A stretch of DNA of 64,000 nucleotides from Desulfobulbaceae bacterium UBA2273 (lineage in GTDB: Bacteria > Desulfobacterota > Desulfobulbia > Desulfobulbales > Desulfurivibrionaceae): the NCBI GenBank assembly GCA_002347095.1, contig DDWZ01000015.1, forward strand, positions 1 to 64,000, written 5' to 3'. Below the pieces are notes generated by a model. It was not told the origin of the DNA and searched no databases. It saw only the letters and a list, made by a program, of their open reading frames with translations. The translations under genes were made by a program, and so were the position numbers. Shown piece by piece: positions 30,313 through 64,000 of this stretch. The stretch's first letter is position 1, and each line of letters begins with the position of its first letter.

Positions 30313-30933
30313 ATGATCACATATCAATCTGTGTGGAAAAGAATTCCTGTTGGCAAACATGCCGCCTTCTTGTTGTTATTCTTCCTGGTATTGTGCACTT
30401 TTCCCCATACCGATTCCGCCGAAGCAGCCGTCTTTGACACCTCGCAAGACAGTTGGGGCGTTTTGGGCGGTTATGGCCAAAGCATTCCCGGCTGGGGAGA
30501 TACCACCCAACGGGTCGAAACCATTGACCTTGTCTTGCGCTACAATCACCGCATCTTTGACAACCTCGGTTCGGGATGGTATCGCGGCTATCACTCCATT
30601 CTTCTGGAACTGCCCGTGCATTTTGTCGTCAGTCCCGATGTCTCCAGCATGGTTGGGATGAATTTTCTGGCCTGTTACACCTTTACCGCCAACCAGGATA
30701 TCCGGCCCTACCTGTTCGGCGGCGGCGGCCCTGTTTACAGTTTTGCCGATGTTCCCGGAATGGGCTCGGAGTTGAACGGCAATTATCAGTTCGGCTTGGG
30801 TCTCAGTTACGGGATAAACCCGGACCACGATTTTCTGTTTGAATTGCGCTACCATCATATCTCCAATGGCGGCAGCGAGGAGCCCAATGAGCCTCTGAAC
30901 TCCGTCAAAGCGCTTTTCGGCCTCACTTTTTAG
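30313..30933 (+). CDS. Acyloxyacyl hydrolase (lipid A 3-O-deacylase, PagL-like)
   Basis: A 206-residue outer-membrane beta-barrel protein with a signal peptide (residues about 15-39). The C-terminal strands carry the PagL active-site pattern RYHHISNGGSEEPNEPLNSVK, with His and Ser two residues apart and a downstream Glu, ending in an aromatic residue (LFGLTF) as barrel proteins do. PagL removes the 3-hydroxyacyl chain at position 3 of lipid A. GGGGGAAG precedes the ATG. It is followed after 8 bases by the next gene of the lipid cluster, so it probably begins that operon and may make room for, or act on, the cluster's product in the outer membrane. Confidence 0.85.
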   Translation: MITYQSVWKRIPVGKHAAFLLLFFLVLCTFPHTDSAEAAVFDTSQDSWGVLGGYGQSIPGWGDTTQRVETIDLVLRYNHRIFDNLGSGWYRGYHSILLELPVHFVVSPDVSSMVGMNFLACYTFTANQDIRPYLFGGGGPVYSFADVPGMGSELNGNYQFGLGLSYGINPDHDFLFELRYHHISNGGSEEPNEPLNSVKALFGLTF

Positions 30934-30941
30934 CAGACGCC

Positions 30942-31361
30942 ATGGAGCTGCCCGATCATTCTTCCGAGGAAGATATAACCGACGGCCTGAAAATCGTGAG
31001 CTATGCCGTGAACAGCAAGGGTGAATATGAGCTGATCCCGGATTTTGTCTGGCAGCCGGTGAATGTCGTCAATCATCAGGCCTGGCAGGAAATTGAAAAA
31101 AATATTGCCGCCTCCAAAGATAAAATTGCCGCCGGCCGGGTAAGCTGCCTCCACTACTACATGATTGCCAACCAAATGGACACCTCCCTGCTGGCCCAGT
31201 ATACCGGTCAGCCGCGCTGGAAGGTGTGCCTGCATCTGCTCCCCTGTATCTTTAACCGGCTGTCTGCAAAAACCCTGCAAAAGTACGCCGAGTTGTATAA
31301 AATTTCCCCGGATGATCTGACCCAAGGCAGACTCCAGCCGCTTATCCACAATCACCAATAG
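30942..31361 (+). CDS. Conserved protein with an XRE-like region, unknown function
   Basis: A 139-residue hydrophilic protein without a signal peptide. The C-terminal half (MDTSLLAQYTGQPRWKVCLHL, then LSAKTLQKYAELYKISPDDL) has the helix pattern of an XRE-type helix-turn-helix domain, so a regulatory role is possible. The N-terminal half (GLKIVSYAVNSKGEYELIPD) looks like a short beta domain. It starts 8 bases after the acyloxyacyl hydrolase gene and is followed within 15 bases by the BtrH-like gene, placing it in the cluster operon. No named family is recognised with certainty. Confidence 0.75.
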   Translation: MELPDHSSEEDITDGLKIVSYAVNSKGEYELIPDFVWQPVNVVNHQAWQEIEKNIAASKDKIAAGRVSCLHYYMIANQMDTSLLAQYTGQPRWKVCLHLLPCIFNRLSAKTLQKYAELYKISPDDLTQGRLQPLIHNHQ

Positions 31362-31376
31362 CCTGGAGCGCATCTT

Positions 31377-32384
31377 TTGCCTGATTTCCCCCACACCCAG
31401 TCCGCCCACTGTGAAAGCGGCGTGGCCGCCAACCTGCTGACCCATCATGGCCTCAAGATTTCCGAGGCCATGGCCTTTGGCCTGGGAGGAGGGCTTTTTT
31501 TCGGCTATCTCCCCTTTATCCGAATCAATGGGCTCCCCCTTGTCACCTACCGGGCCGCAGCCGGAAATATTCTCCGGCAGATTGCCGCTATTCCGGGCGT
31601 CCGCATGGTGGAAAAGAAATTCCGGAACCGGGATGAGGCCATGGCGGAGCTGGACCAAGCCCTGGCCGCCTCCATCCCGGTGGGGCTGCAGACCGGGGTT
31701 TTCTGGCTCCCCTATTTCCCCAAGGCGCTGCGCTTTCACTTCAACGCCCACAACCTGGTCGTCTATGGGAAGGAGGGGAACGAGTATCTGATCAGCGACC
31801 CGGTTTTCCCCGCTCCGGTTCGCTGCCCGGCCGAAGATCTGGCCCGGGCCAGGTTTGCCGCCGGCGCCCTTGCTCCCAAGGGAAAAATGTATTACCTGAC
31901 CCAGGCACCGGCAGAGCTGGAACTTAAGCCCCATATCGTCCGGGGGATTCGCTCCGTATGCAAGATGATGCTGACCAGCCCCTTTCCCCTGATCGGGGTC
32001 AAGGGCATCCGCTTTCTGACAAAACGGCTCAGCAAATGGCCGCAACGGTTGGGCCAGGAAAACGCGGATCTGCATCTGGGCCACGTTGTCCGCATGCAGG
32101 AGGAAATCGGCACCGGCGGGGGCGGCTTCCGTTTCATGTACGCCGCCTTTCTCCAGGAAAGCGCGGCAGCCATGCAGGAACCCCGGTTGCAGGAGTGCGC
32201 CGCCGCCCTGACCGCGGCAGGCGACACCTGGCGCGAGTTTGCCGCCATGGCCGCCCGCCTCTGCAAGAAGCGCGGCCGACCGGAAGACAGCTATCCCGCC
32301 ATGGTGGAATGCCTCAACCGCTGTGGGGCCATGGAAGAAAAGGTTTTCACGGAACTGAGCCAATGGGCCAAACAGCAGCCATGA
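31377..32384 (+). CDS. BtrH N-terminal-domain protein (cysteine-dependent acyltransferase-like)
   Basis: A 335-residue protein. HCESGVAANLLTHHGLKISEAMAFGLGGGLFFGY is the conserved opening of BtrH-type proteins, with the presumed nucleophilic cysteine in AHCESG. The middle HFNAHNLVVYGKEGNEYLISDP supplies the expected histidine. BtrH transfers an acyl group from an acyl carrier protein to an aminoglycoside in butirosin biosynthesis; here the substrate would be a cluster ACP product. The start is TTG at 31377, with GGAG eight bases upstream, and no ATG fits. Its stop overlaps the ABC ATPase start (ATGA). Confidence 0.82.
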   Translation: MPDFPHTQSAHCESGVAANLLTHHGLKISEAMAFGLGGGLFFGYLPFIRINGLPLVTYRAAAGNILRQIAAIPGVRMVEKKFRNRDEAMAELDQALAASIPVGLQTGVFWLPYFPKALRFHFNAHNLVVYGKEGNEYLISDPVFPAPVRCPAEDLARARFAAGALAPKGKMYYLTQAPAELELKPHIVRGIRSVCKMMLTSPFPLIGVKGIRFLTKRLSKWPQRLGQENADLHLGHVVRMQEEIGTGGGGFRFMYAAFLQESAAAMQEPRLQECAAALTAAGDTWREFAAMAARLCKKRGRPEDSYPAMVECLNRCGAMEEKVFTELSQWAKQQP

Positions 32385-33163
32385 GACCCGGCGACCCATG
32401 TTTGCCCGAGCCGGGGCCGGATTGCGTGGTTTCCGCCCGATCGCTAATCAAGCAATACAAAAACAGCGACCGCCCGGCGCTGAATGATTTCAGCCTGGAG
32501 GTGCGGGAGGGGGAATTCTTCGGCCTGCTGGGCCCCAATGGGGCTGGAAAAACCACGGCCATCTCCATTCTTACCGGCCTGTTTCCCGCGGATAGCGGCA
32601 GTATCCGGATCAAGGGGATGTCTTTTCAAGACCACGAGCACGAAATCAAGCGGATTCTGGGCCTGGTGCCCCAGGATATCGGCCTGTATGACACACTCAC
32701 CGCCCGGGAAAACCTGAGCTTTTTCGGCAAACTCTGCGGCCTCAGCGGCCAAAAACTTGCGGAGCGGATCCAACAGGGTCTTGAGTTTGCCCGGCTTACC
32801 GAGCATGCGCGCCATCAAGTGGCCACCTTTTCGACCGGGATGAAACGGCGGCTGAACCTGGCCGTGGGTCTGTTAAACAAGCCGCAGTTGCTGGTCCTTG
32901 ATGAGCCCTGCGTGGGGATTGACGCCCAGTCCCGGCACCTGATCCATAACCAACTGCAAGAGATCAACCGGCAAGGGACCACCATCCTCTACACCACCCA
33001 CTACATTGAAGAGGCCCAGGAACTCTGCAGCCGGATCGGGATCATCGACAACGGCCGCCTGGAGGAACAGGGCAGCCCCACCGCCTTGCTCCAGCAAAGC
33101 GGGATACGCAACCTAGAAGAGCTCTTTCTCCATCTAACCGGCAAGGAACTCCGCGATACCTGA
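32381..33163 (+). CDS. ABC transporter ATP-binding protein
   Basis: A 260-residue ATPase starting at ATG 32381, which overlaps the stop of the BtrH-like gene. Walker A is GPNGAGKTTAIS (about residue 50), the signature is FSTGMKRRLNLAVGL, Walker B is LLVLDEPCVGID, and the switch histidine is in TTHYIEEA. The sequence groups with exporters of the ABC-2/DrrA type. Its permease follows 40 bases downstream. The pair probably exports a lipid or lipid-linked product of this cluster across the inner membrane. Confidence 0.92.
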   Translation: MRPGDPCLPEPGPDCVVSARSLIKQYKNSDRPALNDFSLEVREGEFFGLLGPNGAGKTTAISILTGLFPADSGSIRIKGMSFQDHEHEIKRILGLVPQDIGLYDTLTARENLSFFGKLCGLSGQKLAERIQQGLEFARLTEHARHQVATFSTGMKRRLNLAVGLLNKPQLLVLDEPCVGIDAQSRHLIHNQLQEINRQGTTILYTTHYIEEAQELCSRIGIIDNGRLEEQGSPTALLQQSGIRNLEELFLHLTGKELRDT

Positions 33164-33203
33164 TGAAGATCACTCAACCATCTTTTCCCCCATACGGGCT
33201 CCC

Positions 33204-34496
33204 ATGCTGAAGATCTTTGCCGCCACGGCCAAGGAACTCCTGCTTCTGCGGCGGGACCGGACAGGCCTGCTTGTCCTCTTTCTCATGCCCGCGATCCTGG
33301 TGGTGTTGATCACCCTGGTGCAAGAAAATGTCATGGAGCTCACCGGCCAGAAAAAGACCCAGGTGCTGTTTCTCGACCTGGACCAGGGGGATCTCGGCAG
33401 ATCCCTGCAAAAGCAGTTGTCAACAACCACTCTCGATCTTGTGCTCTGGGATGAAAAGCAGAAAGATATCGCTGACATTCAGGCCGCCGTGACAGGCGGC
33501 GGGTATCAGGTCGGAGTGGTGATTCCCAAGGGCGCCTCCGCCCGGTTTACTGAGGAGACCGCCCGTCTTTTTCAGCAAGGCACAGGCAGCGGAAAGCCAC
33601 GGGAGATGGCCGCCACTACCGTGCAGCTCTTTGTTGATCCCGGCATCATGGCCGGATTGCGCTCGGGGGTTATTGCCCAGCTTGAGATGGCCTTAACCAC
33701 CATTGCCCTGGAAGCAAAGCTGGCCCAGCTCGGCGGGGTGCTTGCGCAAACCATGGCCAGGGCCGGGATGGAGCCGGAACAGAGCCCCCTGGCCGGCGAC
33801 AAACTCCCGGCCCTGTTCCGGCAACCCCTTCTCGACCTGCAGGAACACCAGGGCGACTCCGGGGCAATCGGCGCCTCCCAGTATAAGCCGGTGCAGCAAA
33901 ACGTGCCAGCCTGGGCTCTGTTTGGGATGTTTTTCACCGCCATCCCCATTGCCGGCTCAATCCTGCAGGAACGGAACTCCGGCATCTGGATCCGATTGAC
34001 CGCCCTTCCCGTCTCCCCGCTGGTGCTTTTTACCGGCAAGGCCCTGGCCTATATGGGCGTCTGCCTCTGCCAGTTCCTGCTCATCGCCCTGATCGGGGCC
34101 TTTCTCTTTCCCTTTCTCGGGCTGCCTGCCTTTACCGTTTCCATGCATCCGACCGCGATCCTGCTCACCGTGGTGCTCTCAAGCCTCGCGGCCTGCGGCT
34201 ATGGCATCTTTTTGGGCTTGACCTGCAACTCCTACGAGCAGGCGTCCACCCTGGGCTCCACCACCGTGGTGGCAGCCGCGGCCCTCGGGGGGGTAATGGT
34301 GCCGGTCTATGCCATGCCCCAGGTAATGCAGCAACTCAGCATCATCTCGCCGCTCAACTGGGGTCTGACCGCCTTCCAGGACCTGCTGTTACGCGGCTAC
34401 TCCCTGTCGGCCATCCTCGATGACCTGGGCCGCCTGCTGCTCTTTTTCGCGGTAACCGTTTTTGTATCCTGGAAGCTTGCCGGGATCCGGAAATAG
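33204..34496 (+). CDS. ABC-2-type transporter permease
   Basis: A 430-residue inner-membrane protein. One N-terminal transmembrane helix (LVLFLMPAILVVLITLV) is followed by a large periplasmic domain (about residues 45-230). Five or more C-terminal helices come after it (WALFGMFFTAIPIAGSILQE, YMGVCLCQFLLIALIGAFLF, LLTVVLSSLAACGYGIFLGL, AAAALGGVMVPVYAMPQVM, LLFFAVTVFVSWKLAG), as in the YhiH/ABC2_membrane_3 group. NSGIWIRLTALPVSPLVLFTGK is the conserved cytoplasmic segment. It works with the ATPase just upstream. An acyl carrier protein gene follows 43 bases later, so the operon continues into lipid assembly. Confidence 0.9.
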   Translation: MLKIFAATAKELLLLRRDRTGLLVLFLMPAILVVLITLVQENVMELTGQKKTQVLFLDLDQGDLGRSLQKQLSTTTLDLVLWDEKQKDIADIQAAVTGGGYQVGVVIPKGASARFTEETARLFQQGTGSGKPREMAATTVQLFVDPGIMAGLRSGVIAQLEMALTTIALEAKLAQLGGVLAQTMARAGMEPEQSPLAGDKLPALFRQPLLDLQEHQGDSGAIGASQYKPVQQNVPAWALFGMFFTAIPIAGSILQERNSGIWIRLTALPVSPLVLFTGKALAYMGVCLCQFLLIALIGAFLFPFLGLPAFTVSMHPTAILLTVVLSSLAACGYGIFLGLTCNSYEQASTLGSTTVVAAAALGGVMVPVYAMPQVMQQLSIISPLNWGLTAFQDLLLRGYSLSAILDDLGRLLLFFAVTVFVSWKLAGIRK

Positions 34497-34539: not shown

Positions 34540-34797
34540 ATGGACCAACTACAGCACGAGCTCCTCGAACTGATCTGCACCACCTGCAACCTCCACGATG
34601 TGGACCTGGCCAGCATTGGCCCTGATGATCCCTTGATCGGTCCGGATTCCCCCCTGGGCACCGACTCCCTGGATGCCCTGGAGATTGCAGTGACCGTGCA
34701 GAAGGAATACGGGGTGAGAATGGACTCGGAAAACACCAGCCGGGTTGTTTTGCAGTCGGTGACCCACCTTGCCGACTATATCAGAGCGAACAGATAG
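34540..34797 (+). CDS. Acyl carrier protein (first of four)
   Basis: An 85-residue acyl carrier protein starting at ATG 34540 (MDQLQHELLELICTTCNLHD). The phosphopantetheine attachment serine is in LGTDSLDALEIAVTVQKEYG (DSL motif, about residue 45), and LADYIRANR closes the domain. It carries growing acyl chains as thioesters. Its position after the transporter and before the desaturase suggests that it hands chains to the nearby tailoring enzymes. The ACP at 44242-44499 belongs to the minus-strand operon, and those at 56338 and 60631 to the right-hand operon. Confidence 0.9.
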   Translation: MDQLQHELLELICTTCNLHDVDLASIGPDDPLIGPDSPLGTDSLDALEIAVTVQKEYGVRMDSENTSRVVLQSVTHLADYIRANR

Positions 34798-35229: not shown

Positions 35230-36696
35230 ATGGCAAAGGTCGTTATCATCGGCTCCGGAATCGGCGGATTGAGCACCGGCATCATTTTAGCCAGGCTCGG
35301 TTTTGAGGTCACGGTGGTCGAAAAAAACAGGCAGCCCGGCGGGATGATGCGCAGCTATGTGCGCCAGGGGGTGCATTGCAATGTCGGCCTGCATTATCTG
35401 GGCGCCCTGGATGCAGGGCAGGTGCTGCGCCGCTGCTTCGATCATCTGGGCATCACCGCTGATTTGCCCCTCATGCGGATGGGAACGGACGGCCCCATTG
35501 ACCGCTACCTCTTTAGCGACGCGCGCCTGGGGATCGAATCGTTTGATGTCCCTGCGGGATTTGCGGCCTATGAGAGTAATTTGCGGGCAGCTTTTCCCAC
35601 GCAACAGCCGCAGATCGATGCCCTGATGGCGATGCTGCGCCGCAGTGGTTCTCAGTTCGAGCAACTGGATTTTCTCTACTCGGAAAGGCCACCCCTCTCC
35701 TGGTTTGAACAAATGGAGCCCCTGGGGGCGGTTTTTGAGCGGCTCGGCTGCAGTCCCGGGTTGCGGGCGGTCTTTGGCCTGCCCTCGGTCCTGATCGGGG
35801 TTCCCCCGGCAGTGTGCCCGCAATTTTATCACACCATGGCCCTGGCCAGCTATCTCTTCTCCGCCTGGCGCCTGACCAGCAACGGGGCGCACATGGCCGA
35901 TGTCTGCGCCCAGCGCCTGGCCTCCCTCGGCGGCCGGGTGCGCACCGGCGACGGCGTCGTCCGAATCCGCACTGCGGACGGCTGTGTGCAGGGGGTCACC
36001 CTGGCCTCCGGGGAAACCCTTGACACCGATCTGGTCATCTCCACCCTCCACCCCAAGGAAACACTGGGGCTGCTGCCGCCCGAGAGCGTCAAGCCCTCGT
36101 ATCGCAGGCGTATTGAGGGTTTGCAGGATACCCACGGGATGACCGCGGTCCATGCCCTGGTGCCGGCCGCCCGACATCCGGCTTTCGCCCACAACCTCTT
36201 TGCCATCCAGACCGACGCCTCCGGCGATGCCAGCGATCTGATCTATGTGCAACTGCGCCCCAGCGAACGGCCGGACCAGAATCTGCTCTCCCTGATCACC
36301 TCCGGCCATGAAGCCCTGTGGGATCGCTGGCAGCATACCGTCAGCGGCAAGCGGGGGAAGGAATATCTCCAGAGCAAAACGGACTTTGCCCACCGGCTGC
36401 TCGGCCAAGCGGAAAAGATCACCGGCCCGCTCAGCGGCGTCCAGTTGCTCGATGTCTCCACCCCCCTGACCATCCGGGATTGGGTCAACAGCCCCAACGG
36501 CTCGGCCTATGGGGTCATGCGTTCGACCGAGCAACTGCTTTCCGGCGCCCTGCTGAACCGCACCTCGCTGCAGGGTTTGTTCCTGGCCGGGCAGAGTGTC
36601 ATGGCCCCGGGTATCCTGGGCACGATTATCGGCTCGCTGGCCACGGTACAGTTTATCATCGGCCCAGAGCGCTTTCGACGGGAGGTACGAATTTAG
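35230..36696 (+). CDS. Phytoene-desaturase-like FAD-dependent oxidoreductase
   Basis: A 488-residue flavoprotein of the CrtI/CrtISO type. The dinucleotide-binding start is VVIIGSGIGGLSTGIILARLGFEVTVVEKN, followed by PGGMMRSYVRQG, and the C-terminal FAD-contacting segment is GLFLAGQSVMAPGILGTIIG. Relatives desaturate or isomerise polyene chains. In a cluster without phytoene synthase, the likely substrate is an acyl chain on a carrier protein rather than a carotenoid. Genes of this type are among the candidates named for ladderane biosynthesis in anammox bacteria (from memory). The start ATG has no strong ribosome site. Confidence 0.88.
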   Translation: MAKVVIIGSGIGGLSTGIILARLGFEVTVVEKNRQPGGMMRSYVRQGVHCNVGLHYLGALDAGQVLRRCFDHLGITADLPLMRMGTDGPIDRYLFSDARLGIESFDVPAGFAAYESNLRAAFPTQQPQIDALMAMLRRSGSQFEQLDFLYSERPPLSWFEQMEPLGAVFERLGCSPGLRAVFGLPSVLIGVPPAVCPQFYHTMALASYLFSAWRLTSNGAHMADVCAQRLASLGGRVRTGDGVVRIRTADGCVQGVTLASGETLDTDLVISTLHPKETLGLLPPESVKPSYRRRIEGLQDTHGMTAVHALVPAARHPAFAHNLFAIQTDASGDASDLIYVQLRPSERPDQNLLSLITSGHEALWDRWQHTVSGKRGKEYLQSKTDFAHRLLGQAEKITGPLSGVQLLDVSTPLTIRDWVNSPNGSAYGVMRSTEQLLSGALLNRTSLQGLFLAGQSVMAPGILGTIIGSLATVQFIIGPERFRREVRI

Positions 36697-37045: not shown

Positions 37046-38350
37046 ATGGTCATAATGCATATACTCCTTATTAATCCCCCGAATTGCGGGCGAAGCATTC
37101 CCGAAGAGCGCTATGGGATAACTTCGCTCAAGCAGATTTTTCGCGGCGAACCCCTGGCTCTCGAAGAGCTGGCCGGAAATCTTTTGGAACATACGGTGCG
37201 GATCCTCGACCTGAAGGCTGATCCCGATGGCCTGGACAGGGAGCTGAGCGAATTTCAACCGGATGTGGTCGGCATTACCGGGGTGACCTGCGAGGCGAAT
37301 ACCATGCTGCGGCTTGCCGCCAGGGTCAAGGAATCCTGCCCGGCAACCGTTGTGGTGGGCGGGATTCATGCCAGCAATGATCCGGGGTTCTTCAATCAGG
37401 CAACAGTGGATTATATCGTGGTCGGGATCGGCAAGAAGGTCTTTGCCGAGCTTGTCTGCGCCCTGGAGAGCGATACGAACCGCACCGATCTGCCCGGGGT
37501 GATTCGAACCACGCCGGGCCGGGAGGTCACATGGCCGGCAGTGCGGAACTGTCTTGCCGATCTGGTCATGGAGCGCCCCCCTGCTTATGCTTTGGTACAA
37601 CGCTACCGCTCCCATTACATTCTCGAAAAACTGGGCATCACCATGGGCTTTGTCGCCTCGGCCTTCGGCTGCCCGCACCACTGCCTGTTCTGCTCCATTC
37701 AAGGCCAGACCGGCGGCGGCTATCTGACAAAATCCATTGAAACAGTGATCCGGGATATCTCCCTGCTGCCCGAAATCCCGATCATCCGGCTCGTGGATGC
37801 CAACACCTTCGGCGATGTCAAACGGGCCACCGCCCTTGGCCACGCCCTGCTCGCCTCGGGTCTCAATAAACAATACCTGGCCGATATCCGCTCCGATACG
37901 GTTGTCCGCCACCCGGAAATGCTGCAACAATGGAAGGAGGCCGGCCTACGGGCAGTGATCATCGGCTTTGAAGGGATTGACGATGCCAGCCTCTCGGCCA
38001 TGAACAAGGCCAACCAGGCAGCCATGAATGCCGAGGCCATTTCCATCCTCAACGATCTGGGAATTACCATTGTGGGTGATTTCATCATCTCCCCCGACTA
38101 CGGGGAGGACGACTTTGACCGGCTCGATACCTATCTCGGATCAAGGCAGATCGATCTGCCCATGATCACGGTCATGACCCCCCTGCCGGGCACTGCCCTG
38201 TACAAGCAAGAGCAGCACCGGATCAGCAACCATAATCTGGATTATTACACCCTGACCAATGCCGTCACCCCGACCAAACTTGAGGAACAACGGTTTTACA
38301 GCCGTTATGCGGAGCTCCTTGTCAACAGTCACCACAACGCGCGGTTGTAA
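37046..38350 (+). CDS. B12-binding-domain radical SAM protein (1)
   Basis: A 434-residue enzyme. The N-terminal part (about 1-150) has the cobalamin-binding Rossmann-like fold seen in HILLINPPNCG and DVVGITGVTCEANTMLRLAA. The radical SAM cluster motif is CPHHCLFC (C-x3-C-x2-C, about residue 208), with downstream IRLVDANTFGDVKRA and GFEGIDDASLSAMNKA as in the TIM barrel of the family. Such enzymes methylate or rearrange unactivated carbon. It follows the desaturase gene and precedes the KAS III-like gene, so its substrate is probably an acyl chain. An internal ATG at 37055 is an alternative start. Confidence 0.88.
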   Translation: MVIMHILLINPPNCGRSIPEERYGITSLKQIFRGEPLALEELAGNLLEHTVRILDLKADPDGLDRELSEFQPDVVGITGVTCEANTMLRLAARVKESCPATVVVGGIHASNDPGFFNQATVDYIVVGIGKKVFAELVCALESDTNRTDLPGVIRTTPGREVTWPAVRNCLADLVMERPPAYALVQRYRSHYILEKLGITMGFVASAFGCPHHCLFCSIQGQTGGGYLTKSIETVIRDISLLPEIPIIRLVDANTFGDVKRATALGHALLASGLNKQYLADIRSDTVVRHPEMLQQWKEAGLRAVIIGFEGIDDASLSAMNKANQAAMNAEAISILNDLGITIVGDFIISPDYGEDDFDRLDTYLGSRQIDLPMITVMTPLPGTALYKQEQHRISNHNLDYYTLTNAVTPTKLEEQRFYSRYAELLVNSHHNARL

Positions 38351-51238: not shown

Positions 51239-51249
51239 GACTGATCTTG

Positions 51250-55757: not shown

Positions 55758-55783
55758 ACAACTGTACCTTTTCCTAAATCCCC

Positions 55784-56337: not shown

Positions 56338-56604
56338 ATGAATACATTAACAGCAGAACTCAAGGTCAAGATCATCGACATCCTGAATCTTTCAGACCTG
56401 AGCCCGGAAAATTTCGACGAAAACGACCGGCTGGTCGGCGGCAGCCTGGGCATTGACTCCATCGATGTTCTGGAAATGGTGGTCATGGTGGAAAAAGACT
56501 ACGGCGTCGTGATCAACAGCCAGGAAGTCGGCGAAAAAATCTTTTCCTCCCTGGCCTCCCTGGCCGAATACATCAAGGAAAACACCCCCGGTTCACCGTC
56601 CTGA
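56338..56604 (+). CDS. Acyl carrier protein (third of four)
   Basis: An 88-residue acyl carrier protein starting at ATG 56338 (MNTLTAELKVKIIDILNLSD). The phosphopantetheine serine is in LGIDSIDVLEMVVMVEKDYG (DSI, about residue 41). Its stop overlaps the start of the fused ketosynthase gene (TGATG), so ACP and synthase are made together. It is the first gene of the plus-strand right-hand operon. Confidence 0.93.
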   Translation: MNTLTAELKVKIIDILNLSDLSPENFDENDRLVGGSLGIDSIDVLEMVVMVEKDYGVVINSQEVGEKIFSSLASLAEYIKENTPGSPS

Positions 56605-58778
56605 TGGGAAAACGGGTTTACATCGCCGACCTGGGGATCATCAGCCCGCTCGGCGAGGGAGTCGCCGCCACGGAAGAGGCGCTGCGCGGCAATTGTTCGG
56701 CAATCGCGCCGCTGGATCTCTTTCCCCTCTTGCATGGCGAGCCTTTGCCCACGGGGCAGATCCGGGGACTAGCCGAGCAGTCGGACCTGCCCCGCACCCA
56801 CCGCCTGGCCCACAACGCCGCCCTCCAGGCCATGGCCTCCGGTAACACCCCGCCAGATGTGCTCGACGCGATCATTCTCGGCAACACCACCGGCGGCATC
56901 CTGACCACGGAAACATTGCTCCGAAACAAGGCGAGCAACAAGGCGCTGTATCGCTACCACGGGTTACACAGTGTCGCCGAGTACCTTGCCCAAGAGCTCG
57001 GTTGCCACGGCATGGCCCTGACCGTTTCCACCGCCTGTTCCTCAGGGGCCGTGGCCATTGCCATGGCCCTGGCAATGCTGCGCAGCGGGAAAGCGAAAAC
57101 GGTTCTGGCCGGGGGGGTGGATTCGCTCTGCCGGTTGACCTATTTCGGTTTTCATTCCCTGCAGCTCGTGGATAGACAGGGCTGCAGGCCCCTTGACGCG
57201 GATCGGCATGGCATGGCGGTGGCCGAAGGCGCGGCCATGCTGCTGCTGACCACGGAAAAACCCGATCGCCCCCTGGCCGAGCTCCTCGGCGCCGGGCTTT
57301 CCTGCGATGCCTATCACCCGGCCGCGCCCCACCCGGAGGGGAGGGGCGCGCTCATGGCCATGCAGGCGGCGCTTGCCGATGCCGGCCTTACTCCCACGGA
57401 CATCGGCTACATCAGTCTCCACGGCACCGGCACCCCGGAAAACGATCTGGCCGAGGCCAAGGCCGTCAACACCCTCTTTGCCGCGCCGCCGCCCCTTTCC
57501 TCCATCAAAGGGGCAACCGGCCACAGCCTGGCCGCCTCAGGGGCCATCGAGGCGGTGGTGTCGGCACTCGCGGTGGCCAAAGACTTCCTGCCCGCCAACA
57601 CCGGTTGCCAAAATCCCGATCCCGCCCTTGGCCTGATCCCGTTGAACCGACCGACCACCCAGCCCACCCGCGCCGTGCTCAGTAACTCCTTTGGCTTTGG
57701 CGGCAACAACGGCTGCCTGGTGATTGCCAAACCGGACAATTTTTCACCCCCCCCGCCAGGACGCACCAAAACAGGACTGGCCATTCACGGCTTTTCCTGC
57801 CTCACCGGCGCCGGGGATACCGCAGCCACCATGGCCCTGCTTGCCCAGGGTCTGCCGGTGGCCGGCACACCGGACCTTGCCGCCATCTCGGCAAACCTGC
57901 CGCCCAACCTGGTGCGCCGCCTGAAACGGCTGCCGCGCCTGACGCTGTCCTTGGCCCTGAGCGCCCACCAGGATTCCGGATTCGAGGCAAAGCCCGGTGC
58001 CGTGTTCATGGGAACCGGCTGGGGCGCGCTTTCGGAGACCCATGATTTCCTGGCCCGCCTGACCGATTCGGGCGAACAGTTTCCCAGCCCCACCGACTTT
58101 GTCGGCTCGGTGCATAACGGGCCGGCCGGGCAAACCGCCATCCTCTTCGGGGCAGCAGGAGCCAATATCACCGCCAGCGGCGGCGATTACTCCTTTGAGC
58201 AGGCGCTGCTGGCCGCGGACCTCATGCTGGAAGAGGGGCCGAATACCGCTCTCGTCCTTGGCGCGGATGAAGGGCACTCGGTTCTCTCTCCCCTGCTCGA
58301 TCCTTCCATCGCCCCGGAAGCCCTGTTGGCCGACGGCGGCGGCGCTTTTTGTCTGGGCAGAAAAACAGAGAATGCGCACTGTCTGGTCCGGGTTCCTTTC
58401 TATCAGAGCGGCACAGCCGAGGGGAGCATCACCGCGCTGATCGATGCCCTGGGTAGGGTTCAGACCCTGAATAGCAAGTATGCCCTCCTGCTGGTCGGCA
58501 TCCCCGCAGCGGTACAGAAAGAAGGCGAAGAACAACTGACTCGTTTCCTGGAACAATCCGGCATACAGGCCCCGATCATCCGCTACCGCGAATTCACCGG
58601 GGAGTTCGCCTCGGCCTCGGCCGTGGCCGCGGTCATGGCCGCCTCCTTTCTCACCTCGGGCAAGGTGCCCGGGCCGTTGGTGTCCGGCAATGATCTTGCG
58701 CTGGCGGCGAACAACCCTGCCATTCTGGTGCTTGGTCTGGGGAGATATCTTTCCGCCATGGAGTTCTCCCGCCCATGA
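56604..58778 (+). CDS. Fused ketosynthase and chain-length-factor-like protein
   Basis: A 724-residue double protein. Residues 1 to about 385 form an active FabF-type ketosynthase: VSTACSSGAVAIAMALAML (Cys about residue 143), LHGTGTPENDLAEA (His) and IKGATGHSLAASGAIEA (His). The second half (about 395-724) has a ketosynthase-like fold but no catalytic cysteine: the region reads SVHNGPAGQTAILFGAAGAN and ASGGDYSFEQALLAADLML, as in the chain-length-factor-like partner of aryl polyene synthases (ApeC-type, Ketoacyl-synt_2). In those systems two separate proteins form a heterodimer; here they share one chain. It probably sets the chain length of the cluster product. Confidence 0.9.
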   Translation: MGKRVYIADLGIISPLGEGVAATEEALRGNCSAIAPLDLFPLLHGEPLPTGQIRGLAEQSDLPRTHRLAHNAALQAMASGNTPPDVLDAIILGNTTGGILTTETLLRNKASNKALYRYHGLHSVAEYLAQELGCHGMALTVSTACSSGAVAIAMALAMLRSGKAKTVLAGGVDSLCRLTYFGFHSLQLVDRQGCRPLDADRHGMAVAEGAAMLLLTTEKPDRPLAELLGAGLSCDAYHPAAPHPEGRGALMAMQAALADAGLTPTDIGYISLHGTGTPENDLAEAKAVNTLFAAPPPLSSIKGATGHSLAASGAIEAVVSALAVAKDFLPANTGCQNPDPALGLIPLNRPTTQPTRAVLSNSFGFGGNNGCLVIAKPDNFSPPPPGRTKTGLAIHGFSCLTGAGDTAATMALLAQGLPVAGTPDLAAISANLPPNLVRRLKRLPRLTLSLALSAHQDSGFEAKPGAVFMGTGWGALSETHDFLARLTDSGEQFPSPTDFVGSVHNGPAGQTAILFGAAGANITASGGDYSFEQALLAADLMLEEGPNTALVLGADEGHSVLSPLLDPSIAPEALLADGGGAFCLGRKTENAHCLVRVPFYQSGTAEGSITALIDALGRVQTLNSKYALLLVGIPAAVQKEGEEQLTRFLEQSGIQAPIIRYREFTGEFASASAVAAVMAASFLTSGKVPGPLVSGNDLALAANNPAILVLGLGRYLSAMEFSRP

Positions 58779-60121
58779 AGATCCTGCTCATCTCGCCCAA
58801 CACCCTAACCGTTCCCTATCCGGTCTATCCCATCGGCCTGGATTATGTGGCGGGGTGTATTCCGGCAGAGCATCAGGTCAGGATCGCGGATCTGAATGTC
58901 CTCTCCCTGGAAGCTCTGGAAGAGCTTGTGCATGACTTTTCTCCGCAAATCATCGGCCTCTCCTGCCGCAATATCGACAACACCGAGGCAGGCGACCCCC
59001 TCTTTTTCATCGATGCCTACGGCAAACTGGCTGCCTGGCTGCGCGAGCGCTCGCAGGCGGTGCTGGTCTGCGGCGGCAGCGGCTTCACCATCATGGCGGA
59101 CCGGGTTTTTGCCGCCCTGGGAGTGGATTACGGGATCATCGGCGAAGGGGAGAGATTCGGCCTCCTGGTGGAGGCCCTGCACCAGGGTCTGGACCCCACG
59201 CAAATTCCCGGGGTGATCTCCCCTGCTTCCTCGCCCGCAACGCCCGAGCCTTGGACCGGCACACAGGTGCGCGCCTTCCAGCCCCAAGCCACGCACGTGG
59301 ACTTTTACCTCAAAAAAGGGGGCATGCTGAATCTACAGACCAAACGGGGGTGCTCTTTCAACTGCATCTATTGCCCGTACCCCCATCTTGAAGGAAAAAG
59401 GCACCGCTTGGCCCCCCCTGCCGAGGTGGCCAGGACCGCCATGGATCTGCAGGAGGCCGGGGCACGATATCTTTTTATCACCGACTCGGCCTTTAATTCG
59501 GATGTGGCCCACAGCCTGGAGGTGGCCAAGGCTTTTAAAGCCGCTGGTATTTCCATCCCCTGGGGCGGTTTTTTTGCCCCGCTCAAATTGCCGACTGATT
59601 ATTTTTCCCGCATGGCCGACGCAGGGTGCAAACATGTGGAATTCGGCACCGAGTCGCTTTCCTCTTCCATGCTGGCCACCTATCGGAAACCCTTCGGGGT
59701 TGACGATGTCTTTGTTGCCCACCAACAAGCCCTTGAGGCCGGGCTGCATGTGGCCCATTACTTCCTCCTGGGTGGCCCCGGGGAATCTTCCGCCACGGTC
59801 GCGGAATCCCTTGATCACATTGAACGGCTCAACAAGACGGTCCTGTTTTTTTTCATCGGAATCCGCATCTATCCCCATACCGCCCTCTACGACATTGCCC
59901 TTAAGGAAGGAAAGATCCGCCCGGAAACAAATCTGCTGCAGCCCCTTTTTTACCAGGCCGAGGCAATCGACCGCGACACCATTGCCGCGCAGGTTACGGC
60001 AAGGGCAGACAAACGAAACAACTGGATCATCGGCTCCGGTGGCGCAAAAAGCGCGGCCACGCTCAAGAAAATGTATTCCCGGGGGCATACCGGGCCGCTT
60101 TGGGAATTTCTTGCCGGATAA
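58775..60121 (+). CDS. B12-binding-domain radical SAM protein (5), lipid biosynthesis type
   Basis: A 448-residue enzyme. The N-terminal B12-type domain (KILLISPNTLTVPYPVYPIG, IIGLSCRNIDNTEAGDPLFF, VLVCGGSGFTIMADRVFAAL) is followed by the radical SAM motif CSFNCIYC (about residue 192) with LQTKRG before it, and FITDSAFNSDVAHSLEVAKA in the barrel. Proteins of this kind are annotated as lipid biosynthesis B12-binding radical SAM enzymes in ladderane- or hopanoid-like clusters (from memory). It overlaps the fused ketosynthase gene by four bases. The substrate is likely an ACP-bound or free lipid. Confidence 0.92.
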   Translation: MKILLISPNTLTVPYPVYPIGLDYVAGCIPAEHQVRIADLNVLSLEALEELVHDFSPQIIGLSCRNIDNTEAGDPLFFIDAYGKLAAWLRERSQAVLVCGGSGFTIMADRVFAALGVDYGIIGEGERFGLLVEALHQGLDPTQIPGVISPASSPATPEPWTGTQVRAFQPQATHVDFYLKKGGMLNLQTKRGCSFNCIYCPYPHLEGKRHRLAPPAEVARTAMDLQEAGARYLFITDSAFNSDVAHSLEVAKAFKAAGISIPWGGFFAPLKLPTDYFSRMADAGCKHVEFGTESLSSSMLATYRKPFGVDDVFVAHQQALEAGLHVAHYFLLGGPGESSATVAESLDHIERLNKTVLFFFIGIRIYPHTALYDIALKEGKIRPETNLLQPLFYQAEAIDRDTIAAQVTARADKRNNWIIGSGGAKSAATLKKMYSRGHTGPLWEFLAG

Positions 60122-60262: not shown

Positions 60263-60622
60263 GTGGGCCATTTGTTTCTCGAAAGCGAAACGAGACAATT
60301 GCAAAAAGACGAAATAGCCGGCCGGGTGACAACGGATAGGCAATCGTCTTGGTTTTCCGGCCACTTTCCCGACAACCCCATCCTGCCCGGAATCGCCCAA
60401 TTAAAAATGGTGGCCGACCTTATTGCCGCCTCCAGGGACGACGGCAGGCACATGACCGGATTGAGCCGGGTCAAGTTCAGAAAGATCGTGAAACCCGGGG
60501 AAATACTTGACATTTTCGCCACATTCGTCCAAATAAAAGAGCAATATGTGTTCCGGATAACCAGCGGCACTGACGAGGTTTGTTCCGGGGTGATACTTTT
60601 TGCCAAGAAAAATACACTATAG
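60263..60622 (+). CDS. Hot-dog-fold dehydratase-like protein lacking the usual glutamate
   Basis: A 119-residue hot-dog protein with a GTG start at 60263 preceded by GAGGCG. The catalytic histidine is in SWFSGHFPDNPILPGIAQLKM (about residue 33), but the glutamate that FabZ carries after the PG turn is replaced by lysine (PGIAQLKMVADL). It may act as an isomerase, thioesterase or partner subunit, or use another acid. It is followed 8 bases later by an ACP gene in the same operon. Confidence 0.82.
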   Translation: MGHLFLESETRQLQKDEIAGRVTTDRQSSWFSGHFPDNPILPGIAQLKMVADLIAASRDDGRHMTGLSRVKFRKIVKPGEILDIFATFVQIKEQYVFRITSGTDEVCSGVILFAKKNTL

Positions 60623-60630
60623 AGACTTCC

Positions 60631-60897
60631 ATGACCAACGACCCTACCCAGACCATTACCCGGATCGCCGAAATTATCATCAATGCCTTGCAACTGGAAG
60701 ATGTTACCCCCCAGACCTTTGATCCGGACCTGGATCTGGTGGACGAGGTGGGCATTGATTCCATGGATCTGGCGACCATTGCCCTGGTCCTCCGGGACGA
60801 ATACGGCATCCGGATCGATGAAGACGATTATCCCAAGCTGACCACGGTCCGGATCATCGCCGAATACATCAACACCAAATTGACCAGTGGCGAATAA
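60631..60897 (+). CDS. Acyl carrier protein (fourth of four)
   Basis: An 88-residue acyl carrier protein starting at ATG 60631 (MTNDPTQTITRIAEIIINAL). The phosphopantetheine serine is in VGIDSMDLATIALVLRDEYG (DSM, about residue 44). It is placed between the dehydratase-like gene (gap 8) and a radical SAM gene whose GTG start directly follows its stop codon. Its length and motif suit a normal discrete ACP. Confidence 0.93.
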   Translation: MTNDPTQTITRIAEIIINALQLEDVTPQTFDPDLDLVDEVGIDSMDLATIALVLRDEYGIRIDEDDYPKLTTVRIIAEYINTKLTSGE

Positions 60898-61953
60898 GTG
60901 ATCGTACCGGCCAGGGAGTATAAATTCTCCGAGATCATAGCGGACCCGGTTATCAGGGAACGATGGGATAAAGTTCGGAGGTATTTCTTTCTCCGCGAAT
61001 CCACGTACGACATGAGCAACCGCTGCAATATCCGCTGCGAAGGCTGCTATTACTTTGCCGGCGAAAAACAGTTTGCCGAGGAAAACCGCGATCCCGCAGC
61101 CTGGCGCCAGCTCCTGGAAGCGGAAAAGGCCCGGGGCATCACCTTTGTCGTGCTCGCCGGGGCGGAACCATCATTGGTCCCGGAGCTGTGCGAGGTCTGT
61201 TACGGGGTGATCCCCCTGGGCGCCATTGCCAGCAACGGCCTGCACAGCCTCCCGCAGGGGATAGATTATCGAATCCACATCTCGGTCTGGGGCAATGACC
61301 GGACCAGCCTTGCCATCAGAAAGGCCCCGGACATGCTGGTCCGGCAGATGGCAAATTATCAAAACGACCCAAGAGCCGTCTGGGTCTATACCTTTACCCC
61401 GGTCAACATCGACGAGGCCAGGGAGGTTACGCAAATCCTGGCCAAAGGCGGCCTGCGGATCACCTTCAATATGTTCTCCGCTCCGGTCGGCTACAAAGGG
61501 CCGCTTCGCCATACCCCGGAAACCCTGGCCAGAACGGAGCGGGTCATGACCGAGCTGCTTGCCGAGCTCCCGGAAACCGTGCTGTTTTCCCCCTACAATA
61601 TCCTTGCCCACACCCGGCCCCAGGGCCTGCACGAACTTTTTTCCTGTTCCTATCCCCGCATGAACCAGGCAACGGATATCGGCCTTGGCAGAACATTTCG
61701 CCAATACCGCACCAACCTGCAGTGGGATCGCGACGCGGCCTGCTGCGTGCCGGATACCGATTGCGACGACTGCCGTCATTACGCCGCGGGCAGCGCCGTG
61801 GTCACGGCCCGAATGTACCGCCACGCCACGGATCCGTTGACCTTTTCCGCTTGGCTTGACTATGTTGACACCTACCTGGCTGTCTGGGTTAAAGGGTATG
61901 AAAAAGGCCCCAACCTCTGCGACGCGCCGGTTATTCCCCCTCCAAACCAATGA
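60898..61953 (+). CDS. Radical SAM protein without B12 domain (6)
   Basis: A 351-residue enzyme with a GTG start at 60898, immediately after the ACP stop. The radical SAM motif is CNIRCEGC (about residue 43), with DMSNR before it. Cysteines near the C-terminus (CCVPDTDCDDCRHYAAGSAV) may bind a second cluster. The neighbour at 61973-62971 has the same layout and similar sequence (CNLRCKGC and CCTSETRDCATCKDGAAH), so the two are likely tandem paralogues. No B12 domain is present. It may act on the ACP-bound chain. Confidence 0.88.
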   Translation: MIVPAREYKFSEIIADPVIRERWDKVRRYFFLRESTYDMSNRCNIRCEGCYYFAGEKQFAEENRDPAAWRQLLEAEKARGITFVVLAGAEPSLVPELCEVCYGVIPLGAIASNGLHSLPQGIDYRIHISVWGNDRTSLAIRKAPDMLVRQMANYQNDPRAVWVYTFTPVNIDEAREVTQILAKGGLRITFNMFSAPVGYKGPLRHTPETLARTERVMTELLAELPETVLFSPYNILAHTRPQGLHELFSCSYPRMNQATDIGLGRTFRQYRTNLQWDRDAACCVPDTDCDDCRHYAAGSAVVTARMYRHATDPLTFSAWLDYVDTYLAVWVKGYEKGPNLCDAPVIPPPNQ

Positions 61954-61972
61954 GTTGCCTCCGGTATACACC

Positions 61973-62971
61973 ATGAAAACCGTCAGTTCACTGCTCGATG
62001 CGCACTGGTATGAGCGCTATAAAAACATTGCCAAGCTCAATATCCGCAGTTCCATCTATGACGTCACCGACCGCTGCAACCTGCGTTGCAAGGGGTGTTT
62101 CTTCTTTTCCTCCGGCGAGCATGAGGCGGCTGCCGAGGAAAAGGACGTCAGTAAATGGCACGCTTTTGTGGAAAAGGAGATGGCGCGCGGGGTGAACCTG
62201 GCCATCCTCATCGGCGGGGAGCCCACCCTCTGCCTGGACCGGATCGAGGCCTTTTATAAGCGGCTGCCAACATTTTGCGCCACCAATGGGCTGATCAAGG
62301 TGCCGAGAGAGAGATTCCCCGACATGATGGTCGGCATTTCCTTGTGGGGCGAGGCAGAGGATGAAATAACCCTGCGCGGCAAGGATACCTTCAAGATCTC
62401 CAGCGCCAACTACGCCGGTGATCCCCACGCCTATTATCTCTACACCATCACCCCCAAACAGCTCGGCAAGACCGAGAAGATCATCAAGAAAATCGAAGGG
62501 GTCGGGCTGAAGGTGCACATGCAGCTCTTGTCCAATGACGAGGCGGTGGACGGCTTTTCCTGGACCCCGGAGGAACTGGTCGCGGTGCGGGCGGAGATGG
62601 ATGCGATGCTGGAGGCCTACCCGCGCACGGTGATTTCCTCCAAGTATTACCATAAGGTCATCACCACCGGACAAATGCTGGGCAGGCCGTTCGGCTGGAT
62701 GGAATGCCCCTCGGTTACGGATACCATCGACAAGCGAGTTCCCCAGCCCAAGCGGCTGACCAATTTCATCCGCTGGGCCTCGGACCTTCAGACCGTCCAC
62801 CGCTGCTGCACCTCGGAAACCCGTGACTGCGCCACCTGCAAGGACGGCGCTGCCCACATGAGCTGGGTTATGGTCAACAAACGGGCGCACATGCAGAGTG
62901 CCGAGGAGCTGCAGAACTGGATCGAGGTGTACGAAATGTTTGCCAAGCTCTATCAGTTTATTCCCTGGTAA
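61973..62971 (+). CDS. Radical SAM protein without B12 domain (7), paralogue of its neighbour
   Basis: A 332-residue enzyme starting at ATG 61973 (MKTVSSLLDAHWYERYKN). The radical SAM motif is CNLRCKGC (about residue 37), followed by FFFSSGEHEAAAEEKDVSKW and ILIGGEPTLCLDRIEAFY. A C-terminal cysteine group (RCCTSETRDCATCKDGAAHM) matches the upstream paralogue in position, which suggests a shared auxiliary cluster. It starts 19 bases after the upstream radical SAM stop and precedes a ketosynthase gene, so both lie in the cluster operon. Confidence 0.88.
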   Translation: MKTVSSLLDAHWYERYKNIAKLNIRSSIYDVTDRCNLRCKGCFFFSSGEHEAAAEEKDVSKWHAFVEKEMARGVNLAILIGGEPTLCLDRIEAFYKRLPTFCATNGLIKVPRERFPDMMVGISLWGEAEDEITLRGKDTFKISSANYAGDPHAYYLYTITPKQLGKTEKIIKKIEGVGLKVHMQLLSNDEAVDGFSWTPEELVAVRAEMDAMLEAYPRTVISSKYYHKVITTGQMLGRPFGWMECPSVTDTIDKRVPQPKRLTNFIRWASDLQTVHRCCTSETRDCATCKDGAAHMSWVMVNKRAHMQSAEELQNWIEVYEMFAKLYQFIPW

Positions 62972-62985
62972 TCAGAGCCGGGCTG

Positions 62986-64000
62986 ATGGGATTAAAAGAC
63001 GCGGTCATTATCGGCTACGATGCCATTTCTCCCCTGGGTCATGACCTTGAAAGCCAATGGCAGCAGGCCCTTGCCGGAAAAAGCGGCATCACCCCTCTGA
63101 CCCGTTTTCCCCTCAGCGATGATTTCCCGGTCAGAATCGCCGGCCAGGTTCCCGCCATCGACCAGGCGGACTACCCCTTTCTCTCCGCCAGGCATCAAGC
63201 GGCCTGGAGCTCTCCGGTCTTCAAGTATTCCCAGCTCACGGTGGCCAGGGCGTTGGAGCGTAGCGGCATCGAAATCACCCCGGATCTTGCCTCCCGGGTG
63301 GCGGTGACCTACAGCTCCGCCATCGGCGGTCTGGATGCGGTACTGACCGCCGACCGAAGGATGCAAAGCCAAGGCAAACTGCCCCACCCTTACGCCAACC
63401 CCAATGCCTGCATCAACATGATCGGCGGCAAGATCGCCATCCAGACCGGGGCCAGGGGGCCGATCACCTCCACCATCTCCGCCTGCGCCACCGGGCTCAC
63501 CTCGATGATCATCGGCGCCATGTTTCTCGCCCAGAACCGGGCCGATGTCGCCATCTGCGGGGCGGTTGATTTCGCCCTGGTCGAACCGATCGTGGCCGGT
63601 TTTTACACCATGAACGGCGTTTACATCCCCAAGGATGAGCGGGAACATGATTTTCCGGAGGCGGCCAGCCGGCCTTTTTCCGCCAACCGGCGGGGCTTTG
63701 TCCTCTCCGAGGGCGCAGGAGCGGTGATTCTCGCCACCCGGGAATTCGCCGAGGCGCACGGTCTGGTGTATCATTGCGAACTTGCCGGCTGGGGAATGAC
63801 CTCGGATGCCCACCATTTTGTCGCGCCGTATCTGGAAATGGTTACGCAGTGCATGCTCGACGCCATAACCGATGCCGACCTCGCCCCCCAAGATATCGAT
63901 GCGGTCAACGGTCATGCCGCCTCCACCAAGGTCGGCGACCAGGTGGAATACGATGCCTTGCAGGCGGTTTTTCACCATAATCCGCCGCCGGTCTGCGCCA
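62986..64000 (+). CDS. 3-oxoacyl-ACP synthase (FabF-like), 3' end outside the window
   Basis: The frame opens at ATG 62986 (MGLKDAVIIGYDAISPLGHD) and stays open to the window edge, giving at least 338 residues. A ketosynthase fold with the nucleophile in STISACATGLTSMIIGAMF (Cys about residue 168) and the first histidine in VNGHAASTKVGDQVEYDAL is evident; the second histidine block would be beyond the edge. An acidic insertion follows NGVYIPKDEREHDFPEAASR. It is the second FabF-like enzyme of the cluster and the last gene seen in the right-hand operon, which continues out of view. Confidence 0.9.
   Translation, partial: MGLKDAVIIGYDAISPLGHDLESQWQQALAGKSGITPLTRFPLSDDFPVRIAGQVPAIDQADYPFLSARHQAAWSSPVFKYSQLTVARALERSGIEITPDLASRVAVTYSSAIGGLDAVLTADRRMQSQGKLPHPYANPNACINMIGGKIAIQTGARGPITSTISACATGLTSMIIGAMFLAQNRADVAICGAVDFALVEPIVAGFYTMNGVYIPKDEREHDFPEAASRPFSANRRGFVLSEGAGAVILATREFAEAHGLVYHCELAGWGMTSDAHHFVAPYLEMVTQCMLDAITDADLAPQDIDAVNGHAASTKVGDQVEYDALQAVFHHNPPPVCA

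Follow-up and report, generated by a model that had tools for sequence, protein, structure and literature searches.

A conserved gene cluster of Desulfobulbales rich in radical SAM genes is best filed as a dialkylresorcinol-polyene variant on an aryl-polyene chassis

The closest described relatives of the locus reported here are the dar and arcuflavin genes of Azoarcus sp. BH72 (PMC3949708), the flexirubin (flx and dar) genes of Chitinophaga pinensis and Flavobacterium johnsoniae (PMC3992019), the aryl polyene cluster of E. coli CFT073 (PMC8253772) and the 'ladderane' clusters of Kuenenia and Desulfotalea (PMC2649909), each cited from the accessible portions of the paper. For the last pair, these portions describe cluster synteny and, in D. 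psychrophila, no ladderanes but C31:8 and C31:9 hydrocarbons (Rattray 2009). Clusters in Desulfobacterota metagenome-assembled genomes (MAGs) have been labelled 'ladderane' by antiSMASH, with no ladderane lipid tied to them in the available sections of PMC9902471. Here we describe a cluster of Desulfobulbaceae bacterium UBA2273, analysed in a window of 64,000 nucleotides (bases 1-64000 of the 135,561-base contig DDWZ01000015.1; genome 3.195 Mb, 97.8% complete). It is a real, conserved and large cluster, best filed as a dialkylresorcinol (DAR)-polyene variant on an aryl-polyene chassis and not as a ladderane cluster, and with better than even probability it makes, anaerobically, a hybrid polyene-DAR lipid of the flexirubin/arcuflavin kind.

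The three blocks of the cluster together extend over about 30.3-71.9 kb of the contig. Block 1, the DAR block on the plus strand, contains PagL-like, DarD-like and DarH/BtrH-like genes, an ABC ATPase and permease, a first acyl carrier protein (ACP1), a flavin adenine dinucleotide (FAD) oxidoreductase, a B12-binding radical S-adenosylmethionine (SAM) gene and DarB. Block 2, on the minus strand, holds ACP2, FabF 1, a PlsC-like gene, a B12 radical SAM gene and a SPASM radical SAM gene. Block 3 has a minus-strand arm (ApeP-like, ketoreductase, LolA, LolB-like, B12 radical SAM, AMP ligase, FakA-FakB fusion, glycosyltransferase GT2, LpxL-like) and a plus-strand arm, which starts with ACP3, a fused ketosynthase and chain-length factor (KS-CLF), the TIGR04072 radical SAM gene, an ApeI-like gene and ACP4, and continues with two radical SAM genes, FabF 2, the ketosynthase FabF 3, a 4HBT thioesterase, a PS-DH dehydratase, a GT25-like gene and an MMPL-methyltransferase fusion. 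Every gene class named in a preliminary description of the window, from the ACPs to seven radical SAM enzymes and the flavoprotein, was found in the sequence, and its suggestion of aryl-polyene-type assembly with outer-membrane export held, with Ape roles matched and LolA, LolB-like and MMPL proteins present. Its bounds of 30313 to 64000 were too narrow: the cluster runs on to about position 71890, and the extension that it advised for an exporter or thioesterase uncovered FabF 3 and the four genes that follow it, among them the MMPL exporter and the 4HBT thioesterase. A missing exporter was thus rejected.

We favour the hybrid-lipid reading because of the identities of DarB and DarH, the D-E-F-I-C gene order, the match to Ape roles and the LolB-like fold, and because the gene order is kept in other families, darB is linked to the TIGR04072 gene, and darA-like and B12 genes exclude each other beside darB. 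The protein at 38508-39647, earlier labelled KAS III-like, is a DarB/StlD-type ketosynthase (Table 1): at E ≤ 1e-15 it matches no PDB entries other than those of StlD (401 bits for 5gk0, and 397 bits), and a plain KAS III was rejected in favour of this assignment. Its Cys120, His299 and the Asn of NLTSKGNTG, which we take to be its catalytic residues, are matched in the alignment by the same residues in StlD. The BtrH-like protein passes NF053550, the DarH equivalog model, and has no PDB sequence match at E ≤ 0.01; the DarD-like protein has no Pfam match above cut-off. 'Ladderane-type tailoring', the second theme of the preliminary description, therefore gives way to DarB/StlD and a dar-type run at 30942-34797, with one TIGR04072 match only 8 bits over its cut-off.

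That run is collinear, in D-E-F-I-C order, with the Azoarcus dar cluster, which has two small genes between F and I. Shared with Azoarcus (PMC3949708, available text) are DarB, DarD, a BtrH-like protein, the ABC ATPase, the permease and the ACP, as well as a polyene cluster with LolA, glycosyltransferase, acyltransferase and exporter. Unlike Azoarcus, the window has a B12 radical SAM gene in place of darA, seven radical SAM genes and one locus; no chorismatase or halogenase gene was seen in the window cluster, no search having been aimed at XanB2-type chorismatases. The flexirubin genes (PMC3992019, available text) likewise share polyene assembly, the DAR module, LolA, glycosyltransferase, acyltransferase and exporter, whereas the window genome has no ammonia lyase match, carries radical SAM enzymes and belongs to anaerobes of another phylum. 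Counterparts of ape C, D/J, E/F, H, I, K, L, M, N, O, P, Q and R of E. coli CFT073 (PMC8253772, available text) were assigned by role and not by one-to-one sequence tests; unlike that cluster, the window has a fused KS-CLF, extra ketosynthases and ACPs, PS-DH, a DAR module and radical SAM enzymes, and no 4-hydroxybenzoate source was found in its genome by PF00221 and PF04345 searches. The Kuenenia and Desulfotalea clusters, compared via their published description (PMC2649909, available text, which confirms the related Desulfotalea cluster mentioned in the preliminary description), share radical SAM genes, a phytoene-desaturase-like flavoprotein, FabF paralogues, a ligase and a glycosyltransferase; they differ in that the window TIGR04072 protein lies just above the model cut-off and is accompanied by a DarB module.

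By role, the aryl-polyene assembly genes for KS and CLF, ketoreductase, two dehydratases, ligase and ACPs are all present; all four ACPs carry the attachment serine in a DS(L/I/M)D motif. The KS-CLF fusion has Cys, His and His motifs in its first half and none in its second, matches PDB entries 7f28 (202.9 bits), 9s5h (196.1) and 6qsp (189.6), and is a single full-length match in seven of the nine relative stretches described below (not in G050, and cut at a contig edge in G030). The ApeI-like dehydratase scores 25.8 bits against the ApeI model, below the cut-off of 28.5. For export, a LolA, a LolB-like lipoprotein and an RND/MMPL exporter are present, and the LolB-like protein, as assigned from its predicted fold, would complete the ApeL/M/N transport set named in PMC8253772 (available text). 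Foldseek ranks 1-5 and 8 for its model are LolA/LolB chains (E 2.4e-6 to 7.4e-5; template-modelling score 0.42-0.55); its DUF3261 match was not significant, and G000, as we call the window's genome (other G numbers denote the relatives compared), holds no match to NF053540 (LolB2_flexi).

The grouping is kept well beyond close kin. We compared nine contig stretches from relatives, using 40 window and contig proteins as queries, and 34 of the 40 lay on one contig both in G056 (family f12) and in G055 (family f11; 25 in one run and nine about 80 kb away), which argues for a gene grouping beyond chance. All three blocks share a contig in G056, in G014 over the stretch compared (block 1 from DarB to ACP1) and in G030, where block 1 is of the darA type and block 3 is cut by the contig edge. 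Blocks 2 and 3 form one run in G037 and G055, with the DAR block on another contig or about 80 kb off, respectively. In G021, LpxL marks the start of block 3 at the edge of contig 25, and ACP2 that of blocks 2 and 1 at the edge of contig 10, as if one locus had been broken between contigs. The blocks are divided over contigs in G016, and G050 is a divergent type without DarB. Thus, of the possibility raised earlier that the genes split into unrelated operons in relatives, the part that stands is that they are not together in all genomes (G036, G016, G037, G055), while the blocks do stay together in several families. Desulfurivibrio genomes (G019, of the same family as the window genome, and G024, Desulfurivibrio sp. 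AMeS2, which is D. dismutans according to the available text of PMC12142623) carry homologues of blocks 1-3 in one run of about 33 kb at 25-65% identity.

We then turned to the gene beside darB in 257 genomes of the order, with DarB called at E ≤ 1e-60 and TIGR04072 at E ≤ 1e-80. In G030 and G037, a gene for a flavodoxin-like protein of 304-308 amino acids occupies the darA place directly upstream of darB; it gives weak Flavodoxin_4 matches and a WrbA-like PDB match of 21 bits. Across the survey its close relatives score at least 261.8 bits (36 genomes) and all others at most 76.2, and G000 has no match to the G030 gene at E ≤ 1e-10, so that no DarA aromatase was found beside its DarB. At 100 darB loci in 99 genomes, the gene directly upstream was darA-like in 34 and a B12 radical SAM gene in 62; both occurred at none, and neither at four. 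Gaps to darB were 18-268 bases for the darA-like gene and 4-429 (median 10) for the B12 gene, always on the darB strand. Two of the four remaining loci have the gene on another contig (B12 in G209, darA-like in G146); the other two, G088 and G150, are truncated DarB matches with neither. No genome held both a darA-like gene and a DarB-adjacent B12 gene; G210, of darA type, encodes a B12 radical SAM protein of 35% identity at another place, 13 B12 matches overall were not beside DarB, and G224 has a darA-like gene without a DarB match. A name-based view, in which 32 of 80 listed loci were searched, found DarB in 12, all of B12 type; three were already in the order sample and nine were new, including Geothermobacter hydrogeniphilus HR-1 and Geobacter, Desulfuromonas and Desulfuromusa MAGs. 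Either type can accompany a block 3 of the window's class: G030 and G037 combine it with the darA-like gene, and G000, G014, G055 and G056 with the B12 enzyme.

On a DarB tree of 108 rows, which omits the fragmentary loci of G053, G088, G146 and G150, the darA and B12 types each form one side of a branch (Shimodaira-Hasegawa-like approximate likelihood-ratio support 83 and 94). Its root is set by three distant, long-branched plasmid homologues with support 75. Several independent swaps were rejected in favour of this single change; the pairing of darB with either gene thus appears old and stable, yet one event. DarB-like genes on Prevotella, Bacteroides and Pseudoalteromonas plasmid records have no dar cluster around them, and a Streptomyces plasmid carries an ACP, a ketosynthase and a darA-like gene side by side.

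What the DarB-adjacent B12 enzyme does is the point on which the strongest alternative turns. We give a sizeable, if less than even, chance to its being an ordinary C-methyltransferase acting on the ring or chain, with the ring finished by another enzyme such as the FAD oxidoreductase or left as a cyclohexanedione. Among family models the methylase HpnR scores highest for it (171.9 bits, far under the cut-off of 650), and among PDB sequences TokK (35.6 bits), both in keeping with methylation, whereas the finding that it and the darA-like gene never occur together directly upstream of darB argues for a DarA-like step. Fold comparison of the predicted model (predicted local distance difference test, pLDDT, 75.8, with four stretches below 50) places AprD4, a dehydratase, first, followed by TsrM, MgmA, OxsB and TokK; such matches do not discriminate between methylation and ring oxidation. 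The FAD enzyme, which has no PDB sequence match at E ≤ 1e-5, is DarB-linked, as the alternative would have it (53 of its 58 carriers among the 257 genomes also hold DarB), but its carriers include 26 of 34 darA-type and 25 of 61 B12-type genomes; as it occurs with both and does not track darA loss, it was rejected as a DarA substitute. With the ring as substrate in either case, takeover of the DarA step, suggested by placement, and methyl transfer, suggested by family resemblance, stand at about even odds.

The DAR module is tied to the 'ladder' gene as well. DarB occurred in 99 of the 257 genomes and TIGR04072 in 117, with both in 76 and neither in 117 (odds ratio 9.4 and p 8.7e-16 by Fisher test, without correction for kinship); TIGR04072 was present in 22 of 34 darA-type and 53 of 61 B12-type genomes. 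Where the two share a contig (29 of 76 genomes), they lie within 30 kb in 24, the gap being 31 bases in G109 and 1.6-3 kb in G069, G175, G176, G188 and G189. Canonical TIGR04072 proteins score 555-629 bits, and 39 of the 117 TIGR04072 genomes have such a copy; at 368.3 bits, the window copy is, as judged from its score, therefore of another class. Of the seven radical SAM proteins in the window, four have a B12 domain and three (51872, 60898 and 61973) fall below the Pfam Radical_SAM cut-off (23.4-25.5 against 29.5 bits). The B12 enzyme at 51872..53137 occurs in both cluster classes, with 57-63% identity in canonical-class clusters, and the pair at 60898..61953 and 61973..62971 is kept in relatives. 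At least nine radical SAM matches lie on one contig of G041 (contig 53, about 70-110 kb). Both the DarB-linked B12 enzyme and the TIGR04072 protein have close relatives in cable bacteria (Candidatus Electrothrix), at 69-70% and 66-68%, respectively (P0220, P0240, P0092, P0079).

Several observations weigh against the hybrid-lipid reading. DarB misses the DarB 'exception' model NF053539 (448.1 bits, cut-off 550), as does the darA-type DarB of G030 (500 bits), and the darA-like gene is named from its position and a weak flavodoxin match. With a single switch on the DarB tree, the exclusivity amounts in evolutionary terms to one observation. TIGR04072 occurs without DarB in 41 genomes and DarB without TIGR04072 in 23; of the 76 genomes with both, 47 have them on different contigs, and in five of the 29 others (G055, G122, G123, G127, G158) they are 82 kb-1.6 Mb apart. 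G036 has block 3 only and no DarB, and the 27 kb beyond the TIGR04072 gene of G021 showed no second half of block 3. Ammonia lyase (PF00221) was not found in G000, with matches in four of 22 genomes searched, and chorismate lyase (PF04345) in none of the 22, G000 included, while E. coli was positive among 14 controls; the polyene starter therefore probably does not come from these two routes. Finally, the word 'pigment' is absent from the main text of two Desulfurivibrio papers searched.

The distant pairs, the DarB-less block 3 of G036 and the presence of two export systems would also fit two adjacent but separate pathways, each with its own exporter, one for a DAR lipid, be it a signal or a membrane lipid, and one for an aryl-polyene-like pigment. 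We consider this rather unlikely, given the close DarB-TIGR04072 spacing in most same-contig genomes and the case of Azoarcus, where arc and dar genes lie at separate places and a joined product was nevertheless found (PMC3949708, available text). A ladderane-like or polyunsaturated-hydrocarbon pathway, in which radical SAM enzymes and the desaturase-like flavoprotein would rebuild the growing chain into a polyunsaturated or cyclised lipid with DarB incidental, draws on the above-cut-off TIGR04072 match, on the Desulfotalea-Kuenenia synteny and the D. psychrophila hydrocarbons, and on TIGR04072 genes without DarB in the order and in Desulfosediminicola flagellatus and two Desulforhopalus species, but is improbable in view of the lack of ladderanes among the D. 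psychrophila lipids in the available text of PMC2649909, the non-canonical class of the window copy, the DarB in 76 of 117 TIGR04072 genomes and the Ape-type export genes.

For the hybrid polyene-DAR lipid we infer the following route, its starter, product, step order and radical-enzyme reaction included. The acyl ligase would load the starter, and the KS-CLF fusion, FabF-like ketosynthases, ketoreductase and dehydratases would build a polyene acid on ACP3 and ACP4, following aryl-polyene logic. ACP1 and DarB, in turn, would condense two acyl chains to a dialkyl-cyclohexane-1,3-dione, whose ring the DarB-coupled B12 radical SAM enzyme might modify in place of DarA, by aromatisation or C-methylation. 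The DarH/BtrH acyltransferase would then join polyene and ring, and LolA, the LolB-like lipoprotein, the MMPL protein and the ABC pair would carry the product to the outer membrane, where the LpxL, PlsC, GT2, FakAB-like and PagL-like enzymes may anchor it or remodel lipid.

Table 1. Features of the cluster, with contig positions, strand and evidence
Feature	Position	Strand	Evidence
PagL-like lipid A 3-O-deacylase	30313..30933	+	PF09411 56.2 bits
DarD-like small protein, 139 amino acids	30942..31361	+	Position as darD of Azoarcus and in relatives
DarH/BtrH-type acyltransferase (darE of Azoarcus)	31377..32384	+	NF053550 474.9 bits, cut-off 300; PF14399, PF16169
ABC transporter ATPase, darF-like, start codon uncertain	32420..33163	+	PF00005 105.9 bits
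ABC-2 permease, darI-like	33204..34496	+	PF12698 108.6 bits
ACP1, darC-like	34540..34797	+	PF00550 27.7 bits; DS serine
FAD oxidoreductase, phytoene-desaturase-like	35230..36696	+	PF01593 79 bits
B12-binding radical SAM in DarA place	37046..38350	+	PF02310, PF04055; HpnR below cut-off (see text)
DarB/StlD-type ketosynthase (cyclohexanedione/dialkylresorcinol former, by family)	38508..39647	+	NF005293 547.2 bits, cut-off 450
Radical SAM/SPASM enzyme	39673..40713	-	PF04055 94.2, PF13186 28.2 bits
B12-binding radical SAM, BchE/HpnJ-like	40720..42210	-	PF02310, PF04055; BchE 151.4 bits, below cut-off 481
PlsC-like acyltransferase	42207..42959	-	PF01553 77.2 bits
FabF-like ketosynthase 1	42972..44222	-	PF00109/PF02801; Cys, His, His motifs
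ACP2	44242..44499	-	PF00550 30.3 bits
LpxL-like acyltransferase	45889..46758	-	PF03279 45.1 bits
GT2 glycosyltransferase, start codon by eye	46755..47456	-	PF00535 89.3 bits
FakA-FakB-like fusion (DAK2 + DegV), fatty acid kinase-like	47453..49156	-	PF02734, PF21645, PF02645
AMP-forming acyl ligase, ApeH-like role	49153..50508	-	PF00501 82 bits
B12-binding radical SAM	51872..53137	-	PF02310 37.3 bits
LolB-like lipoprotein, ApeN role	53307..53969	-	Predicted fold, pLDDT 85.5
LolA-like carrier, ApeL role	53966..54580	-	PF03548 41.8 bits; LolA2_flexi 89.8, below cut-off 125
Ketoreductase, ApeQ/FlxB role	54580..55317	-	PF13561 217.8 bits; FlxB 297, below cut-off 340
ApeP-like dehydratase, start codon by eye	55314..55760	-	PF22817 28.1 bits, cut-off 27
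ACP3	56338..56604	+	PF00550 32.5 bits
Fused ketosynthase and chain-length-factor-like protein, ApeO/ApeC role	56604..58778	+	PF00109, PF02801, PF13723
TIGR04072 'ladder' B12 radical SAM	58775..60121	+	368.3 bits, cut-off 360
ApeI/FabZ-like dehydratase	60263..60622	+	PF07977 29.8 bits; PDB 6qsr 35.9 bits
ACP4	60631..60897	+	PF00550 37.7 bits
Radical SAM protein	60898..61953	+	PF04055 25.5 bits, below cut-off 29.5
Radical SAM protein, paired with 60898..61953	61973..62971	+	PF04055 23.4 bits, below cut-off
FabF-like ketosynthase 2	62986..64236 (window edge 64000)	+	FabF-like
FabF-like ketosynthase 3	64264-65529	+	Just past window

Among the accessory genes, PagL-like homologues lie near the DAR block or block 2 in G021, G030, G038, G055 and G056 and within the cluster in G018, G019 and G024, and the single-protein fusion of FakA-FakB-like domains is kept in relatives at 45-87% identity. 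The cluster also contains an IS30-like element (transposase 44717-45727, imperfect inverted ends 44678-44698/45681-45701) flanked by two perfectly inverted copies of a 23-base REP-like palindrome (44620-44642 and 45707-45729), next to which the ACP2 and LpxL genes align full-length with relatives, as well as a UDG gene and a 145-amino-acid open reading frame (ORF; 50646-51783); none of the three was found in the nine relative stretches compared. To the left, at 20134-25922, lie RhuM-like, UvrD-like and Abi_2 genes with lower GC content (51%), and to the right, at contig positions 72943-74184, a tyrosine-recombinase-like ORF, judged by eye. Given these flanking genes and the presence of DarB in four of the 17 genomes of the window's own genus, the cluster may be an island.

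In the open-licence PMC literature we found no report, among the matches listed, in which a DAR/flexirubin module goes with radical SAM enzymes or occurs in sulfate reducers. More tentatively than the hybrid lipid itself, and at well under even probability, we suggest that a B12 radical SAM enzyme took over DAR ring-finishing from the flavodoxin-like DarA, giving an O2-independent, flexirubin-like outer-membrane lipid that would be widespread in sulfur-cycling and metal-reducing anaerobes, where many 'ladderane'-labelled clusters would make the same lipid. Cultured carriers (Desulfurivibrio) exist, so the product is directly testable. If the proposal is true, an orphan cluster class would gain a chemical prediction, radical SAM chemistry an enzyme that acts on a ring and is coupled to a known ketosynthase, and anaerobes a flexirubin-like envelope lipid.

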